From Hahella chejuensis KCTC 2396 (GTDB taxonomy: Bacteria > Pseudomonadota > Gammaproteobacteria > Pseudomonadales > Oleiphilaceae), in assembly GCF_000012985.1 (NCBI RefSeq), contig NC_007645.1, forward strand, positions 744,001 through 808,000: DNA of 64,000 bases, given 5' to 3'. A program made the position numbers and the translations under genes. Under the pieces are notes generated by a model. The model was not told where the DNA came from. It ran no database searches and saw only the letters and a program-made list of their open reading frames with translations. Of this stretch, positions 8,091-60,422 are shown one piece after another (the first letter of the stretch is position 1; the number at the start of each line of letters is the position of its first letter).

Positions 8091-9458
8091 ATGAGAAAAC
8101 TTCCACTTCTGCTGGGCGGTCTGCTGTGCATGGCCGGTCCTGTTTGGGCCTCTGAAGGAGGCATGTTCGTCCTCGACGCCACTGACTCACCCAAGGCGAT
8201 ACTCGCCGTCATAATTTTTATCGTCGCTTATATCGCCGTCATGGCGGAAGAAGTATTGCATTTAAGGAAATCCAAGCCGGTTATTTTCGCCGCTGGATTA
8301 ATCTGGGTCCTGGTGGCCAGCGTGGCTCAGGACATGGGACGCAGCGATGACGAAATCCACAACGCCGTCTCTCACAATTTGTTGGAGTACGGCGCTTTAT
8401 TCTTATTTCTATTGGTGGCGATGACTTTCATCAATGCGATGGAAGAGCGCCATGTCTTCGAGTCCTTACGCTCGTATCTGGTGCACAAGGGCATGAGCTA
8501 TCGTAAGCTGTTCTGGGTTACCGGATGGCTGGCGTTTTTCATTTCGCCAGTGGCGGATAACCTCACCACCGCGTTGTTGATGGGCGCCGTCATCATGGCG
8601 GTGGGGGGCAGAGATACTCGATTTGTCTCTTTGGCCATGGTCAATGTGGTGGTGGGCGCTAACGCAGGTGGGGCGTTCAGTCCTTTTGGGGACATTACGA
8701 CGTTGATGGTGTGGGCGTCCAAGAAAGTTCAGTTTGAAGAGTTTTTTGCGCTGTTCATTCCTTCCGTGCTGAATTTTGTAACACCCGCGCTGATCATGAA
8801 CTTTTTCCTGCCTAATGGCGTTCCTTCCGGACATGGTGGGCTGGTTCCAATCAAGCGAGGAGGCCTACGCATCTGCGCCTTGTTCCTACTCACCATTGCA
8901 ACGGCGGTCTGCTTTGAGCGCTTTTTCCATCTGCCGCCGTTTCTCGGCATGATGACCGGTATGTCCGTACTCATGTTTTTCGCTTATTTTCTACGTAAAA
9001 CCGGCACGGTGGAGGATGATATCCAGTTTGATATTTTCCGAAGAGTGGCGCGTGCGGAGTGGGACACGTTACTGTTCTTTTTCGGTGTTATCTTCTGTGT
9101 GGGCGGCCTGGCGACGTTGGGCTATCTGCAGATGATGTCCCATGGCATGTACGATAACTGGGGGCCAACGATCGCGAATATTGTGGCGGGAACTATTTCT
9201 GCGGTCGTGGATAATATTCCGGTGATGTTCGCGATTATTTCCATGGAGCCGGATATGGATGTCAGCCAATGGCTGTTGATCACGCTTACTGCGGGAGTGG
9301 GAGGCAGCCTGCTCTCTATCGGTTCTGCGGCCGGGGTGGCGTTGATGGGGCAGTCAAAAGGCAGCTATACCTTCTTGTCCCATCTGAAATGGTCCTGGGC
9401 TATCTTGATCGGCTACGGCGTATCTATCGCCGCGCATCTGGCTATCAATGGAACCTGA
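8091..9458 (+). CDS. nhaD: Sodium/proton antiporter NhaD
   Basis: Inner-membrane Na+(Li+)/H+ antiporter of the ArsB/NhaD superfamily. The 455-residue protein opens with a signal-like hydrophobic stretch ending WASEGG, then about 12 membrane helices. Family landmarks include the early segment around AVMAEEVLHLRKSKP, PVADNLTTALLMG and, in the second half, AVVDNIPVMFAI, the paired DN motifs of the two inverted halves. It lies between a 429-base non-coding region and the first copy of the 122-bp hairpin element. Together with Mrp (51.5-57.3 kb) and the Kef-type antiporter (24-25.9 kb) it points to control of sodium and pH in a saline habitat. Confidence 0.92.
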   Translation: MRKLPLLLGGLLCMAGPVWASEGGMFVLDATDSPKAILAVIIFIVAYIAVMAEEVLHLRKSKPVIFAAGLIWVLVASVAQDMGRSDDEIHNAVSHNLLEYGALFLFLLVAMTFINAMEERHVFESLRSYLVHKGMSYRKLFWVTGWLAFFISPVADNLTTALLMGAVIMAVGGRDTRFVSLAMVNVVVGANAGGAFSPFGDITTLMVWASKKVQFEEFFALFIPSVLNFVTPALIMNFFLPNGVPSGHGGLVPIKRGGLRICALFLLTIATAVCFERFFHLPPFLGMMTGMSVLMFFAYFLRKTGTVEDDIQFDIFRRVARAEWDTLLFFFGVIFCVGGLATLGYLQMMSHGMYDNWGPTIANIVAGTISAVVDNIPVMFAIISMEPDMDVSQWLLITLTAGVGGSLLSIGSAAGVALMGQSKGSYTFLSHLKWSWAILIGYGVSIAAHLAINGT

Positions 9459-9486
9459 AAGGCCTGTGTGGCGACGAGCTGCCGGA

Positions 9487-9608
9487 CTAATAGTCTGGCG
9501 CATGGATGCGCCTGCGCGGCTGTTAGCCGCGGGAGACAGGGCCTGACCTGTGCAGGCCCTGTCGTTGCAGACAAGTAGAAGGAAGCTATTTGTCTGCCTG
9601 ATTAATAG
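9487..9608 (+). repeat. 122-bp multi-hairpin element, copy 1
   Basis: Intergenic element between nhaD and the hydrolase gene, matching copy 2 (10986-11107) at 108 of 122 bases without gaps. It folds into four successive stems: 6 bp at 9498-9511, 7 bp at 9515-9531, 11 bp at 9535-9563 with a 7-base loop, and 11 bp at 9568-9596 with a 7-base loop and one G-T wobble. The two ends form an imperfect inverted repeat (TTAATA-like). It starts 28 bases after the nhaD stop codon. It is most like a non-autonomous MITE or BIME-type repeat, and may also act as terminator or mRNA stabiliser. Confidence 0.85.
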
Positions 9609-9641
9609 CATGGAACACACTGAGACTAGAGAACCTTCGCC

Positions 9642-10538
9642 ATGTCCCCGTCCCCTGAAATCTTATCGGTCAGTAGCCAGGACCAAGTACATTCCACGCT
9701 GTCTCTCTATCGCACAGAGGATGCATTGGCTCCAGTGGTTGTCTGTATGCCCGCTATGGGCGTGCGAGCCAGCTTCTATGCGCCTTTGGCGGAGGCGCTG
9801 TCCGCGCGCGGCCTGCACTGCGCAACGGCGGACCTGCGCGGACATGGCGGCAGCTCAGTGCGCGCATCCCGGCGCACTAATTTCGGTTACTACGAAATGA
9901 TTCAGTATGACTGGCCGGCAGTGTTGGACTGTGTGAGGCTTCATTTACCGGATTCACCGATCTGGCTGCTTGGCCACAGTCTGGGCGGTCAACTGAGCGC
10001 CCTTTACATGGCGGAGCAGCCGGGGTCCGTAGCAGGCCTGATTTTACTGGCTTCCTGTAATGTCTATTACAAAGGTTACGCCAAACCTTTGAGGACTCTC
10101 GTCAGCACGCAATTTCTTCGCGGCGTCAGCGAAGTACTGGGTTATTTGCCAGGGGATCGCATTGGTTTCGCAGGGCGGGAGGCGCGTCGCCTTATTCGCG
10201 ATTGGGCGCGTAATGCTCGCACTGGTGATTATTACCCGGAGCGCAGCCCTATTAATTATGAGCGTCTTTTGGAGGCGGTCACCAAGCCTGTGCTGGCGAT
10301 TTCATTCGAGTCCGATGAACTGGCTCCGGCTGAAGCCGTAGCGAACTTGTATTGCAAAATGCCTTCAGCGGAGGTAACGCATTGGCGTCTGACGAATGCG
10401 GATTTTGGCGGCGCCTGCGTTGGGCACTTCAATTGGATCAAACACTCCGAGAACTTGGCGCAGCGTTTAGGCGGTTGGCTGAATGAGCGTAATGCCTTAC
10501 ACCCTGAGTCGACGTTGACGGCCCCGCAGGAAAGCTAA
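9642..10538 (+). CDS. Alpha/beta-fold hydrolase
   Basis: A 298-residue cytoplasmic alpha/beta hydrolase. The nucleophile elbow GHSLGG starts at residue 111, placing the catalytic serine at 113. An oxyanion region CMPAMGVRASFY lies near residue 37, the DLRGHGGS loop near 66, an acidic candidate in SFESDELAP near 224, and a histidine in VGHFNWI near the C-terminus that would complete the triad. The overall pattern recalls the predicted hydrolases of COG4757. The substrate is unknown. The start lacks a strong ribosome site. It faces the HIT gene tail to tail across a palindromic hairpin. Confidence 0.8.
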   Translation: MSPSPEILSVSSQDQVHSTLSLYRTEDALAPVVVCMPAMGVRASFYAPLAEALSARGLHCATADLRGHGGSSVRASRRTNFGYYEMIQYDWPAVLDCVRLHLPDSPIWLLGHSLGGQLSALYMAEQPGSVAGLILLASCNVYYKGYAKPLRTLVSTQFLRGVSEVLGYLPGDRIGFAGREARRLIRDWARNARTGDYYPERSPINYERLLEAVTKPVLAISFESDELAPAEAVANLYCKMPSAEVTHWRLTNADFGGACVGHFNWIKHSENLAQRLGGWLNERNALHPESTLTAPQES

Positions 10539-10564
10539 CAGGGTAAGCCCGCGCCTTACCCTGT
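10538..10564. terminator. Bidirectional hairpin between convergent genes
   Basis: A perfect 10-bp stem (10538-10547 with 10555-10564) and a 7-base loop lie between the hydrolase (plus) and HIT (minus) genes. No clear T run, so termination is inferred from position and stem strength. Confidence 0.6.
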
Positions 10565-10585
10565 CCATAGCTTGAAAAGGCAGGC

Positions 10586-10948
10586 CTAGACTTTGAGTTT
10601 GTCCGTATAGGGCGGCCAGCCCAGAGGTTTCCCCGCCAGCACATGGAGGTGAATATGGAAAACGGTTTGGCCTGCGCTTTCGTTACAGTTCATCACCACC
10701 CGGTAGCCGTCGTCGGCGAACCCTTTTTCTTTGGCGATTTTGGCGGCGGCGATGTACAAGTGGCCCACTAACTCCCGGTCTTGTTCTTCAATATCGTTGA
10801 TCGTGGCGATGGACTTTTTGGGAATGACCAGAAAGTGCACCGGCGCCTGGGGGTTGATATCGTTGAACGCCAGACAGAATTCATCCTCGTAGATAATATC
10901 GGCGGGGATTTCCCGTTTGATGATTTTGCTGAAAATCGTTTCAGACAT
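10586..10948 (-). CDS. HIT family (HinT-like) nucleotide hydrolase
   Basis: A 120-residue histidine triad protein that should hydrolyse nucleoside phosphoramidates or related adenylated compounds in the cytoplasm. The triad HIHLH is at residues 98-102, followed by the HinT-type AGKPLGWPP tail. The start SETIFSKIIKREIPAD is the family's normal N-terminus and has AAAGGATG 6 bases upstream. A GTG-type extension to 11002 would run into the 122-bp repeat and is rejected. Read in the minus direction it follows ubiF, with repeat copy 2 in the gap, so it may be cotranscribed through that element or isolated by it. Confidence 0.92.
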   Translation of the reverse strand: MSETIFSKIIKREIPADIIYEDEFCLAFNDINPQAPVHFLVIPKKSIATINDIEEQDRELVGHLYIAAAKIAKEKGFADDGYRVVMNCNESAGQTVFHIHLHVLAGKPLGWPPYTDKLKV

Positions 10949-10985
10949 GGTCTTGCATCCTTTGGCTGGGTTACTTGTTGAGATG

Positions 10986-11107
10986 TTAATAATCAGACGC
11001 ATGGATGCGCCTGCGCGGCGGCTAGCCGCGGGAGACAGTGCCTGACATGGGCAGGCGCTGTCGTTGCGGACAAATAGAAGGAAGCTATTTGTCCGCCTGA
11101 TTAATAA
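10986..11107 (+). repeat. 122-bp multi-hairpin element, copy 2
   Basis: Second full copy of the element at 9487-9608, in the same orientation. Its fourth stem reads CGGACAAATAG against CTATTTGTCCG, where copy 1 has CAGACAAGTAG against CTATTTGTCTG: the second base pair changed from A-T to G-C on both arms together. The third stem retains pairing by a T-G wobble. The ends TTAATAATCAG and CTGATTAATAA form a better terminal inverted repeat than in copy 1. The right end overlaps the last codons of ubiF and includes its stop codon. Relative to the flanking minus-strand genes it is antisense. Confidence 0.85.
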
Positions 11108-12387
11108 CGCGTCAGCGGACGTTCCGCCTCGGCGCCATTCAGTCCCATTGCATAGGCGACGACCTTGCGCTTCGCCGGTCCCAACAAGCCAGCGAGGCCA
11201 AGACCAAGGTTGCGCGCCAACTTCACAGGGGCCAGATTGTTGCTGAAGGCGTAATAAAAACCATCCATCAGCGTCATCATTTTAAGATTCTCTCCCCGGC
11301 GCAATCGTTCATACTGGCGGAGCGTCTCAAGGTCTCCAATGTCCGGGCCACGTTCAGCGGCTTGCCGAATGACTTCCGCAAGGGCGGCGGCGTCCTGAAA
11401 ACCCAGGTTTACTCCCTGTCCCGCCAGAGGATTTATCGTATGCGCTGCGTCTCCCGCCAGCGCGACGCCCTTCGCCACATAGTGTTGGGCGTGCCGTTTC
11501 ACCAGTGGGAATGAGCCTTTGCCGAGCACATGGAGCAGCTCCGGTAACTGCCGGGGAAACTCTTTGCGCAGAGCACGGAGAAAATCGTCTTGAGAGAGTT
11601 GTTGTAAAGCCTTTAACTTGGCGGGCTGGTCGTACCAGACCAGTGAGGCGTAGGCGACGCCGTCAATGGCGCACAAAGGCAAAAACGCCAGTGGCCCATG
11701 GGGCCGGAACGCCTGCCAGGTAATGTCCTGAGGCTCTCCTGCTATGGCTACGCTGATCACCAGGGCATGCTGCTCATAGGCGTCGCTGAGCAGCCCAAGC
11801 TGCGCTTGCTCCCGAACCATGGAGGAGCCTCCGTCTGCGCCGACGATCAGGCGTCCGCGCAGTATGCTCTGATCGTCCAGCGTGACTTCGGGAAACGTTT
11901 CGCGAAAGTTGATGGCGCGAATGCGTCGCCCGCTGATTAGCGTTGTGTTTTCCGCTTGCTCGACCACGCGCAGCAGGGCTAATTGAATGACCCGGTTCTC
12001 AACGATATGACCGAGATGAGTGTGGCCGACCTGACGAGAATCGAACTCTGTTTTATTCACCACTGACGAAAGCCGCTCGCCAAGGGGATTACCCAGCTTT
12101 TCCCAAACAGCCAGGCGCTGATAGGGGTGGGCGCGCATCTGCAGCACGCGCTCCCAGGCGCCAAGTTGGGTCAGGAATTTCTCGCTGGCGAAGTTGATGG
12201 CGGATACTCGCAGGTCCGGCGTCTCGTCAGGGTTGAAAGGGACGGGCGGCTCCCTCTCAATAACCGCGATTCTTAACACCGTGTTCTTTAACGCCGCGGC
12301 GATGGCTGCGCCGACCATACCTCCACCGACGATAATAACGTCATAGTCAGGGGTGTCGCTGGGTTGGGAAGAAGCCTTGTCTGTCAT
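11101..12387 (-). CDS. ubiF: Ubiquinone biosynthesis flavin hydroxylase UbiF
   Basis: FAD-dependent monooxygenase of the UbiH/UbiF/COQ6 family, 428 residues against about 390 for E. coli UbiF. The FAD-binding GGGMVGAA is at residues 21-28, an arginine-bearing PDLRVSAI follows near 60, the DG motif IVGADGGSS is near 185, and the second FAD motif GDAAHTINPLAGQG is near 310. The stretches MRAHPYQRLAVWE and AFSNNLAPVKLARNLG closely recall E. coli UbiF, favouring the C6 hydroxylation of the ubiquinone ring over UbiH activity. The stop codon lies inside repeat copy 2. No strong ribosome site precedes the ATG. UbiA is encoded at 23-24 kb. Confidence 0.85.
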   Translation of the reverse strand: MTDKASSQPSDTPDYDVIIVGGGMVGAAIAAALKNTVLRIAVIEREPPVPFNPDETPDLRVSAINFASEKFLTQLGAWERVLQMRAHPYQRLAVWEKLGNPLGERLSSVVNKTEFDSRQVGHTHLGHIVENRVIQLALLRVVEQAENTTLISGRRIRAINFRETFPEVTLDDQSILRGRLIVGADGGSSMVREQAQLGLLSDAYEQHALVISVAIAGEPQDITWQAFRPHGPLAFLPLCAIDGVAYASLVWYDQPAKLKALQQLSQDDFLRALRKEFPRQLPELLHVLGKGSFPLVKRHAQHYVAKGVALAGDAAHTINPLAGQGVNLGFQDAAALAEVIRQAAERGPDIGDLETLRQYERLRRGENLKMMTLMDGFYYAFSNNLAPVKLARNLGLGLAGLLGPAKRKVVAYAMGLNGAEAERPLTRY

Positions 12388-14026: not shown

Positions 14027-15313
14027 TTATTGATTGGTTTTAACGGTCGCTTCCACGACGCCGACAACGCGACGGTTGGCGCTGCGGCCATCCGCTGTAT
14101 TGTTGTCGCCGATTGGACGGGTTTCGCCATAGCCAACGCTGGAGATTCTCTCGCCAGCGATGCCGAAGCGCTCCACCACCATCTGACGCACAGCGCTGGC
14201 GCGCTTCTCGGACAGCTTCTGGTTGTAGGCGTCTTGGCCACGGTCGTCAGTGTGACCTTCCACAACGGCTTTAGTGTCTGGATACTGACGCATGAACTCC
14301 GCCAGTTTTTCCACTTCAGATACGAACTCATCTGTAATTGCGGCTGAGTTGGTCGGGAACGTCACGTTCAATGTAATGGTGACTGTTTCGCTCAGCTGGA
14401 TGCGGCAGCCGCGGTTATCCACTTTGGCGCCATAAGGCGTGTCTGGGCATGCGTCCAGGCCGTCAGTGATGCCGTCGCGGTCGGTATCCAGCGGGCAGCC
14501 TCTGCTGTCGACTTTAGCGGCAGCTGGAGAGTTCGGGCACTGGTCTTTTTCATTCGGCACGCCGTCTGCGTCATCATCGCCGACAACTGGGCAGCCCGTA
14601 GCGTCTACGCGCGCACCGGCTTTGGTGTTGGGGCACTGATCCTTGTCATCAGTCACGCCGTCGCCGTCCGCGTCGCCGATCACCTCACATCCGCGAGCAT
14701 CGACTGTGGCGCCGTAAGGCGTTCCAGGACAAGCGTCCTCATCGTCGTATACGCCGTCGCGGTCGCTATCTTTAGGCGCTGGCGCGGCGGAGGCGAACAT
14801 GTAGGTGAAACCCAGGTTCAACATGGCGTCTTTCGTTTCGTCTTCATCGCCATATACGCCGCGGGCGTCAAAGCGCACGTCCATGGAGTCGCTGATAGCA
14901 TGCTTGATGCCGGCGCCCAGATTGTACTGGGTTTCCTCGTCTTTGCCGCCGCCATCGTGTTTGAATCTATAATTGCCTGCGCCGCCGACTAGATATGGAC
15001 GCCAAGCTTCGCCCTGGTTGAAGTGGTAGAGCGCATCCACGCGATAGAACACGCTATCGAGGTAGCCGGCGTTATGCTTGCGTTCCAGGTCCGCGGCTCC
15101 AATCAGGACTTCTGCGGAAATGGCAGGGGTGAAGTTGTATCCCAAACCTGCGGCTAAACTGGGATCGTCTTCGATTTGGCGCTCATGGTCGAAAAAGGTA
15201 TAGCCGAGCAGGCCGGTGAAATAAGCGCCTTCTTCGCGACCGTCGGCGAACGCCGGCTGCGTGGAAGCAATAGCGCTCATCAGTAAAATGGATGGGAGTA
15301 GTTTTGCTTTCAT
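14027..15313 (-). CDS. OprF-like OmpA family outer-membrane porin
   Basis: A 428-residue outer-membrane protein. A signal peptide (about 1-22, ending PAFA) leads into an eight-strand OmpA-type beta barrel (to about 175), then about five calcium-binding thrombospondin type 3 units (DxDxDGVxD and CPxTPxGAxVDxxGC patterns, about 180-300), and a C-terminal OmpA peptidoglycan-binding domain with EGHTDDRGQDAYN near 365. This order matches Pseudomonas OprF. The ATG at 15313 has AGAGGTG upstream and opens the signal peptide; the frame stays open to 15421 but that extension is not used. It has its own strong terminator. Confidence 0.92.
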   Translation of the reverse strand: MKAKLLPSILLMSAIASTQPAFADGREEGAYFTGLLGYTFFDHERQIEDDPSLAAGLGYNFTPAISAEVLIGAADLERKHNAGYLDSVFYRVDALYHFNQGEAWRPYLVGGAGNYRFKHDGGGKDEETQYNLGAGIKHAISDSMDVRFDARGVYGDEDETKDAMLNLGFTYMFASAAPAPKDSDRDGVYDDEDACPGTPYGATVDARGCEVIGDADGDGVTDDKDQCPNTKAGARVDATGCPVVGDDDADGVPNEKDQCPNSPAAAKVDSRGCPLDTDRDGITDGLDACPDTPYGAKVDNRGCRIQLSETVTITLNVTFPTNSAAITDEFVSEVEKLAEFMRQYPDTKAVVEGHTDDRGQDAYNQKLSEKRASAVRQMVVERFGIAGERISSVGYGETRPIGDNNTADGRSANRRVVGVVEATVKTNQ

Positions 15314-15392
15314 TGCCACCTCTTTGTGTAATCTATACCCGGACCTTGTCGGCCCGGGGGAACTTTCCAAAATAAAACAGGGATTAAGGGAG

Positions 15393-16211
15393 TTATTGAG
15401 TTTCTTGATAAATGTGGACATCCCTTTGTGGGAACGGAATGGTGACGCCTTCTTCGTCGAAGCGTTTTTTCACATTCTCATGCATATCGAAATACAGCGG
15501 CCAATAGTCCGCAGTGGCGACCCAGGGACGCACAGCTAAATTGACGGAGCTGTCCGCCAGCGCCAATACGGCGATAACGGGAGCTGGGTCTTTCAATACG
15601 CGGGAGTCGGCTTCAAGCATTGATTTAATTATATTTTTCGCCTTGTCGATGTCGTCGCCGTAGCTGATGCCGAAAACCATGTCCACACGTCTGGTTGCTT
15701 CCGCTGCAATGTTGATCAAGGGGTTATTGGCCAGGTTGGAGTTGGGAATAATGACCCGGCGATTGTCCGGGGTCATCAAAATCGTCGTGAAGATCTGGAT
15801 TTCCCTGACCGTACCGATATAGCCAGCTCCATCTATCACATCGCCAACCTTAAAAGGCTTGAACACCAGGATCATAATGCCGCTGGCGAAGTTCGACAGG
15901 TTGCCCTGTAGAGCCAGGCCTATAGCCAGACCGGCGGCGCCTAAAACAGCGATAAAGGAAGTCGTTTCAATGCCCACCATTTGCGCCACGCTGACCAGCA
16001 ACATCGCCTTGAGGGCAACTGATGCAAGGCTGTGAACAAACTTGGTGAGTGTTGGATCAAACTTCTTCTGCAGGCGATCGTCAGTGAACTTGAGCGCCTT
16101 GCCGATCAGCCACATACCTACAATAAGAGTAATAATGGCGAGCAACAGTTGCGGCGCGTACTCCATCACCAATTCGACGCCCTTATCTAAATACTGATCT
16201 AGGTTCTCCAT
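15393..16211 (-). CDS. mscS: MscS-type small mechanosensitive channel
   Basis: A 272-residue inner-membrane channel that releases solutes when membrane tension rises after osmotic downshift. Three N-terminal membrane helices are visible, the third being the pore helix with the glycine/alanine packing AVLGAAGLAIGLALQG, followed by NFASGIMIL and the beta domain with the FKPFKVGDVI motif. The length is near E. coli MscS (286). It shares a 364-base divergent region with the methyltransferase gene. Confidence 0.95.
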   Translation of the reverse strand: MENLDQYLDKGVELVMEYAPQLLLAIITLIVGMWLIGKALKFTDDRLQKKFDPTLTKFVHSLASVALKAMLLVSVAQMVGIETTSFIAVLGAAGLAIGLALQGNLSNFASGIMILVFKPFKVGDVIDGAGYIGTVREIQIFTTILMTPDNRRVIIPNSNLANNPLINIAAEATRRVDMVFGISYGDDIDKAKNIIKSMLEADSRVLKDPAPVIAVLALADSSVNLAVRPWVATADYWPLYFDMHENVKKRFDEEGVTIPFPQRDVHIYQETQ

Positions 16212-60371: not shown

Positions 60372-60422
60372 CCTGTCGTTGCAGACAAATAGCAGGAAGC
60401 TATTTGTCTGCCTGATGAATAG
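60372..60422 (+). repeat. 51-bp partial copy of the hairpin element (copy 3)
   Basis: Matches the last 51 bases of copy 1 at 48 positions. It contains only the fourth hairpin, here a perfect 11-bp stem (CAGACAAATAG with CTATTTGTCTG) and a 7-base loop. The left three hairpins are absent. It starts directly after the TAG of the AA10 gene. Confidence 0.85.

Follow-up and report, generated by a model that had tools for sequence, protein, structure and literature searches.

RUP of Streptococcus pneumoniae is a 107-bp repeat proposed to be moved by IS630-Spn1 (PMC2229807; PMC3049150), and in the accessible sections of a 2007 review it is the only such repeat for which IS-like ends are reported (PMC2229807). 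The Correia/NEMIS repeats of Neisseria and the ERIC/IRU repeats of enterobacteria likewise have TA termini and terminal inverted repeats, and NEMIS also contains stem-loops for which processing by RNase III has been proposed, as described in the same sections (PMC2229807). The Nezha MITE of cyanobacteria, which is ISNpu3-like, is also proposed to be mobilized in trans by an IS with similar ends, according to the available part of a further report (PMC3049150).

Here we describe a repeat family of Hahella chejuensis KCTC 2396, copies of which lie in a window of 64,000 nucleotides (NC_007645.1, positions 744,001 to 808,000; Table 1). The repeats in this window are very probably the decayed copies of a MITE, a non-autonomous DNA transposon, belonging to the IS630/Tc1-mariner type: the element is short and non-autonomous, is present in many copies, duplicates TA, has terminal inverted repeats and has ends resembling those of a resident IS630-family IS. 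With RUP, as portrayed in the accessible parts of two reports, it has in common a short length, a mostly intergenic location, more than 100 copies, a TA target, a folded structure and ends like those of an IS630-family IS resident in the same host (PMC2229807; PMC3049150). Unlike RUP, it has another host and another size and is built of five separate hairpins with a palindromic 5′ end, the two being compared by their descriptions. It differs from Correia/NEMIS and ERIC/IRU in host and length, and it too is likened to Nezha by description. The family is new but the kind is already known, namely a further IS630-type MITE that, by analogy, would work like the pneumococcal RUP. In the open literature no paper was found joining Hahella with miniature inverted-repeat, or Hahella chejuensis with IS630; wider searches of the same literature gave no title on such a repeat among the matches listed; and Hahella is absent from the MITE review PMC10969869 and from PMC3733652.

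Table 1. Copies of the element in the window, their last hairpins and the neighboring genes (window coordinates)
Feature	Position	Strand	Remarks
Copy 1	9488..9607	+	consensus 30-149 of the 150-letter repeat; right TA 9606-9607
Copy 2	10983..11107	+	consensus 26-150; right TA 11105-11106
Copy 3, partial	60372..60421	+	consensus 100-149, comprising the last hairpin and the 3′ end
Copy 1, last hairpin (H5; fourth stem of the sequence-only reading)	9567..9597	+	A-T pair 9569/9595
Copy 2, last hairpin	11066..11096	+	compensated G-C pair 11068/11094
TAA stop codon of FAD-binding protein gene	11101..11103	-	within 3′ terminal repeat of copy 2
FAD-binding protein gene flanking copy 2	11101-12387	-	
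CitMHS-family membrane transporter, flanking	8091..9458	+	context
alpha/beta hydrolase, flanking	9642..10538	+	context
HIT-domain protein, flanking	10586..10948	-	start picked by eye; context

A sequence-only reading of the window had described 9487-9608 and 10986-11107 as two full copies of a 122-bp element with four hairpins. On recount, these intervals do align over 122 positions without gaps and with 14 differences (12 over the inner 120 positions), and the double change from A-T to G-C that it noticed in one stem is confirmed. The folds of the two copies have z scores of -6.9 and -7.1, with none of 200 dinucleotide shuffles folding equally well. The boundaries and the hairpin count were mistaken: the 122-bp repeat covers the interior and the 3′ part of a longer element with five hairpins and 146 bp between the TA copies, and TTAATAATCAG, taken for the end repeat, is an internal inverted repeat. 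The true 5′ end is some 28 bp upstream of that, since copies fetched with their flanks show a conserved block of about 28 bases above the start first assigned; this 5′ palindromic module is absent from copies 1 and 2.

The intact element reads TA{TTAAyATGGCAATGATATTGGCATGTTAATAATCAGG...GCCTGATTAA}TA, and the 150-letter repeat used as reference comprises the element with its two TA copies and a single letter on each side. Its consensus, TTATTAATATGGCAATGATATTGGCATGTTAATAATCAGGCGCATGGATGCGCCTGCGCGGCGGCTAGCCGCGGGAGACAGGGCCTGACATGTGCAGGCCCTGTCGTTGCAGACAAATAGAAGGAAGCTATTTGTCTGCCTGATTAATAA, was drawn from 104 alignment rows (103 of them distinct), made up of 102 full copies, 77 from the own genome, and the two window copies. 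Five hairpins form when a full copy is folded, whether as RNA (z -8.7) or as DNA (z -11.7). The first hairpin, TTAAyATGGCAATGATATTGGCATGTTAA, is a near-palindrome that the sequence-only reading had missed, and this 5′ module has 147 matches in the genome at up to three mismatches, compared with none for the reversed control. The terminal inverted repeats taken from the consensus, TTAATATGGCA and TTAATCAGGCA, are alike at 9 of 11 positions. A match to an Rfam family or to a known IS end had been named beforehand as a finding that would count against the element. Covariance-model searches of window positions 9200-11300 and of a full copy with its flanks (L061 1401-1750) gave no Rfam match at E ≤1, and a likeness to the ends of an IS630-type IS was found, as set out below.

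The two window copies are far from the only ones, a possibility that had been left to a full-genome search. In the 7,215,267-bp genome, 198 sites match a 25-nt core of the last hairpin at up to three mismatches (113 and 85 by strand), and since the reversed pattern matches nowhere in it the core repeat is not due to chance; an initial similarity search had given at least 41 matches (40 of 253 candidates scored). A sample of 925,357 bases from the own genome, non-random in being picked partly around known copies and partly for missing partners, gave 140 places, which were classified as full (80), 3′-only (35), 5′-only (18), having both ends and an internal deletion (4) or internal (3), several of the “5′-only” copies actually retaining the 3′ end after internal deletion. 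The contiguous 400 kb from 612001 to 1012000 holds 17 places, six of them full.

Could the 122-bp unit nevertheless be complete in itself, delimited by the inner repeat TTAATAATCAGG/CCTGATTAATAA, with the roughly 29-bp 5′ palindrome a separate module joined later? Starts near the inner repeat are seen in the two window copies (consensus 30 and 26) and also in those at 159201 (30) and 5706058 (23), and there are short forms in which the 5′ palindrome, or the last hairpin with TTAA ends, stands by itself. However, 80 of 140 places in the non-random sample and 6 of 17 in the contiguous 400 kb are full length, the TA empty sites described below were scored among both-end copies only, and the other 3′-only copies have scattered starts (47, 52, 57, 63, 90, 95 and others), which fit decay. 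We therefore consider a self-contained 122-bp unit improbable, and treat the 146-bp form as the element.

Several reduced or altered forms were seen in the own genome (G000). Copies at G000:C1 418526, 3455281, 5062182 and 4253592 have four different internal deletions, with most of the last two hairpins gone, and retain both ends and TA (78-80 letters). Miniature forms in which the last hairpin stands alone between TTAATC...GATTAA ends occur at G000:C1:4252561-4252611, which is 51 letters long with TA at both ends, and at about 1878404. At G000:C1 1943249, 3705798 and 3814988 part of the 5′ arm of the last hairpin is duplicated, the outcome expected of replication slippage at such a structure.

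Across the seven genomes of the genus, core counts are 198 (G000), 103 (G005), 43 (G001), 23 (G004), 1 (G006), 0 (G002) and 0 (G003), and decayed copies of the element are present in G006. Two decayed places (817791 and 934237; 76% and 74% identity) are common to the own genome and G001, so the family predates the recent wave. Outside the genus, one of 31 family and order genomes gave a match, and this was of 21 nt only; two 21-nt matches in G029 were rejected as element copies, being merely a shared hairpin. The exact core was found in four stretches of a collection of 84,980 named species, from which near genomes may be omitted, and all four are from Hahella sp. HN01. Phage and plasmid records, from which those near the own genome may likewise be omitted, gave no match at E 1e-5. 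Within the searches made, the element family is known from Hahella alone.

Insertion sites were compared between strains, as the sequence-only reading had proposed, using 400-kb regions of G000, G001 and G005 that are syntenic and whose alignment breaks at many elements. Fourteen copies with both ends were examined, one of them with a 14-bp internal deletion, and a site was counted as empty where at least 44 of 62 joined-flank positions were matched in the sister genome, TA itself making up 2 of the 62. For nine of the 14 an empty site was resolved in one or more sisters, and for eight of these nine TA is present in at least one of them. From 28 comparisons 13 empty sites were resolved, with TA at the joint in 11, CA in one (G000 42455 in G001, yet G005 has TA there) and GG in one (G001 139446 in G000). 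In two alignments the joint is matched exactly, as in CTAATAGAT-TA-AGTGTATG in G001 against CTAATAGAT-TA-element-TA-AGTGTATG. The element inserts at TA and duplicates it. The idea of a retroelement-like repeat with a fixed 3′ and a variable 5′ end was dropped, because partial copies miss either end, several 5′-only ones still carry a 3′ end beyond an internal deletion, and the empty sites show insertion at TA.

The sequence-only reading had also pointed to a TnpA-REP/Y1 transposase, which would make the repeat a REP/REPIN-like element. Palindromic units at high copy would suit such an origin, and the own genome has three Y1_Tnp matches. Y1 elements, however, are not known to make a target duplication, and such an origin is contradicted because TA is duplicated on insertion; furthermore, the ends are IS630-like. 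Y1_Tnp itself occurs in all seven genus genomes, with or without the element, including G002 and G003 in which no copy was found. We give this origin next to no credence. One Y1-type transposase match (L193, G000:C1:3365648-3365974) lies about 1 kb from an element copy, a nearness that is probably coincidental.

For the IS630-type MITE a candidate partner is present in the own genome. This is IS-B, an IS630-family IS with an intact 344-aa DDE transposase (G000:C1:3354658-3355689, L170) that scores 235 bits against NCBIfam transpos_IS630 (equivalog, cut-off 100) and matches Pfam DDE_3. The own genome has 12 matches to PF13358, eight belonging to IS-A or a close relative, whose ends are unrelated, and four to IS-B, one of the latter intact. 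The ends of IS-B are TTAATCCGGCGCCGATATAAGCAT and TTAACCAGGCATCGATATAGGCAT, with variants in sister genomes. Against four IS-B ends the 5′ end of the element agrees at 17, 18, 19 and 17 of 24 bases; the 67,318 other TA-flanked 24-mers that served as background score no higher than 17 (three reach it), so two of the four IS-B ends exceed every background site. The 3′ end of the element agrees with the IS-B ends at 9, 10, 10 and 11 of the outer 11 bases, and at least 9 is reached by 19 of the 67,318 background sites (16 with 9, one with 10 and two with 11); over 24 bases its agreement of 13-17 is not above the best background (up to 18). No interior part of the element was traced to IS-B.

The distribution of IS-B is also close to that of the element. 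Its protein is full-length at 92-100% in G000, G005 and G001 and is represented by contig-end pieces at 94-97% in G004; among the seven genus genomes none was detected in G003 and G006, and G002 has one weak piece of 42 residues at 62%. The element is abundant (23-198 cores) in the four genomes holding the IS-B transposase or pieces of it and has 0-1 cores in the other three, the exception to co-distribution being G006 with its decayed copies and no detected IS-B. The IS-B transposase would recognize the ends of the element and move it in trans, and we infer that such mobilization by IS-B is probable. Two other candidates were rejected. IS-A, the other IS630-type IS, agrees at 4 and 6 of 24 bases with the 5′ end and at 9 in both comparisons with the 3′ end, and no matching ends were seen for a 34%-identical IS in G005 (L283). 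The copies of IS-A (L164-L169, L172) share about 98-100% identity, which points to a recent spread. An IS-B-like end (TTAATCTGGC...GGCATTCTATGCC) also occurs at L166 2000-2110, in a stretch closing with GCCGGATTAA that is perhaps a deletion derivative of IS-B.

Taking ORFs of at least 100 codons as a proxy for genes, 136 of the 140 copies could be scored (four are near a stretch end or have no flanking ORF). All but one of these (135/136) are outside ORFs, compared with 1031 of 2120 random points inside them. By type of gap, copies between tandem genes number 37 in one orientation versus 45 in the other, with 26 in convergent and 27 in divergent gaps; the background gaps are 374 tandem, 143 convergent and 133 divergent. 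In G001 the FAD-binding protein gene that flanks copy 2 ends in CGC TGA versus CGT TAT TAA in the own genome, which on an alignment reading places its stop one codon earlier. Elsewhere in the window (14406-14770) there are diverged repeats at a spacing of 90-96 bases within ORF 14027-15421, whose product resembles an OmpA-type protein with calcium-binding repeats.

How do the stems of the element stay paired? Standard pairs occupy 97.5% of 4783 cells. Both sides have changed at 7 of 47 pairs and in 21 cells. Shuffling gave means of 2.2 pairs and 2.5 cells (none of 500 as high), and sliding the partners by 1-3 columns gave at most 6 pairs and at most 11 cells; both controls leave kinship in, and several changes are common to subfamilies (six rows have G-C at the pair noticed in the window). 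Double Watson-Crick changes account for 20 cells in 19 of 104 rows. The compensatory changes are real. The sequence-only reading had taken them to imply selection on, or recent amplification of, a folded RNA or single-stranded DNA structure; an amplified folded mobile element is borne out, and selection on a folded RNA is not.

Such selection would be expected of a functional RNA module, a signal for mRNA processing or stability as proposed for NEMIS, whose stems would be kept paired in the transcript. The fold is very stable (z -8.7 as RNA), covariation exceeds the shuffles, and stems vary less (0.030) than unpaired columns (0.072), which selection on structure could explain too. However, with the U8-G28 pair set aside, single changes comprise 79 G-U, 60 A-C and 59 other cells (G-U versus A-C, p 0.13), or 34 G-U and 27 A-C when counted by type (p 0.44), and this lack of a significant G-U excess over A-C leaves no clear mark of RNA-level selection. 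Moreover, the orientation of copies to flanking genes is unbiased and their gap types are near the background mix, copies are often truncated, nine of 14 are missing from a sister genome, and the last stem has an A:A mismatch in 11 of 103 rows. An RNA module of this kind is, in our judgment, unlikely.

A process in DNA could have the same effect. Monttinen and Loytynoja discuss multibase compensatory changes and loop inversions as products of template switching in DNA replication, and the same changes are met here; in the available part of their paper the subject is RNA genes, whereas the Hahella case is a dispersed non-coding mobile element (PMC8794818). In one copy (L117, 10432-10577) the fourth loop, CGCATGT, is the exact reverse complement of the ACATGCG variant carried by 10 of 104 rows, with the arms unchanged; this is the sole such case among 173 oriented copies scanned, in which the loop pattern was readable in part. 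Another copy (L081) has gained AC and GT at corresponding positions of its last stem, and a third (L119 4372) has two adjacent compensated pairs. Single cases though they are, the loop inversion, the symmetric insertion and the adjacent double compensation together favor template switching in DNA over RNA selection. A re-paired T-A form of the A:A mismatch in the last stem occurs in two rows and at four places, each of them belonging to the sister genome G005, where four core places read GTC...GAC (re-paired) and others GAC...GAC (the A:A intermediate). As to the loops, that of the third hairpin is hypervariable, with 25 forms in 104 rows (alignment columns 63-74), and that of the last hairpin is nearly fixed, being AAGGAAG in 97 of 104 rows (columns 142-149).

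Replication would copy one arm of a DNA hairpin from the other by template switching, which would be chiefly what keeps the stems paired, and we infer that pairing may be maintained mainly in this way and not by a conserved RNA function. It is quite possible, though we stop a little short of favoring it, that hairpin repair by template switching has left a natural record in this family, in which the stems are free of RNA constraint and mutation itself re-pairs them, A:A intermediates having been amplified and later re-paired; the loop inversion and the symmetric insertion would belong to the same record.

These results define an IS630-type MITE family in Hahella, one more case like that of RUP, for which a candidate transposase partner is at hand and whose insertions are datable by their empty sites. 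Its many copies are a test bed for the origin of compensatory changes in dispersed hairpins, by RNA selection or by DNA template switching, a test that matters to anyone taking covariation as proof of functional RNA. If the family is indeed a record of template switching, covariation by itself would be a misleading guide to functional RNA in repeats of this kind.
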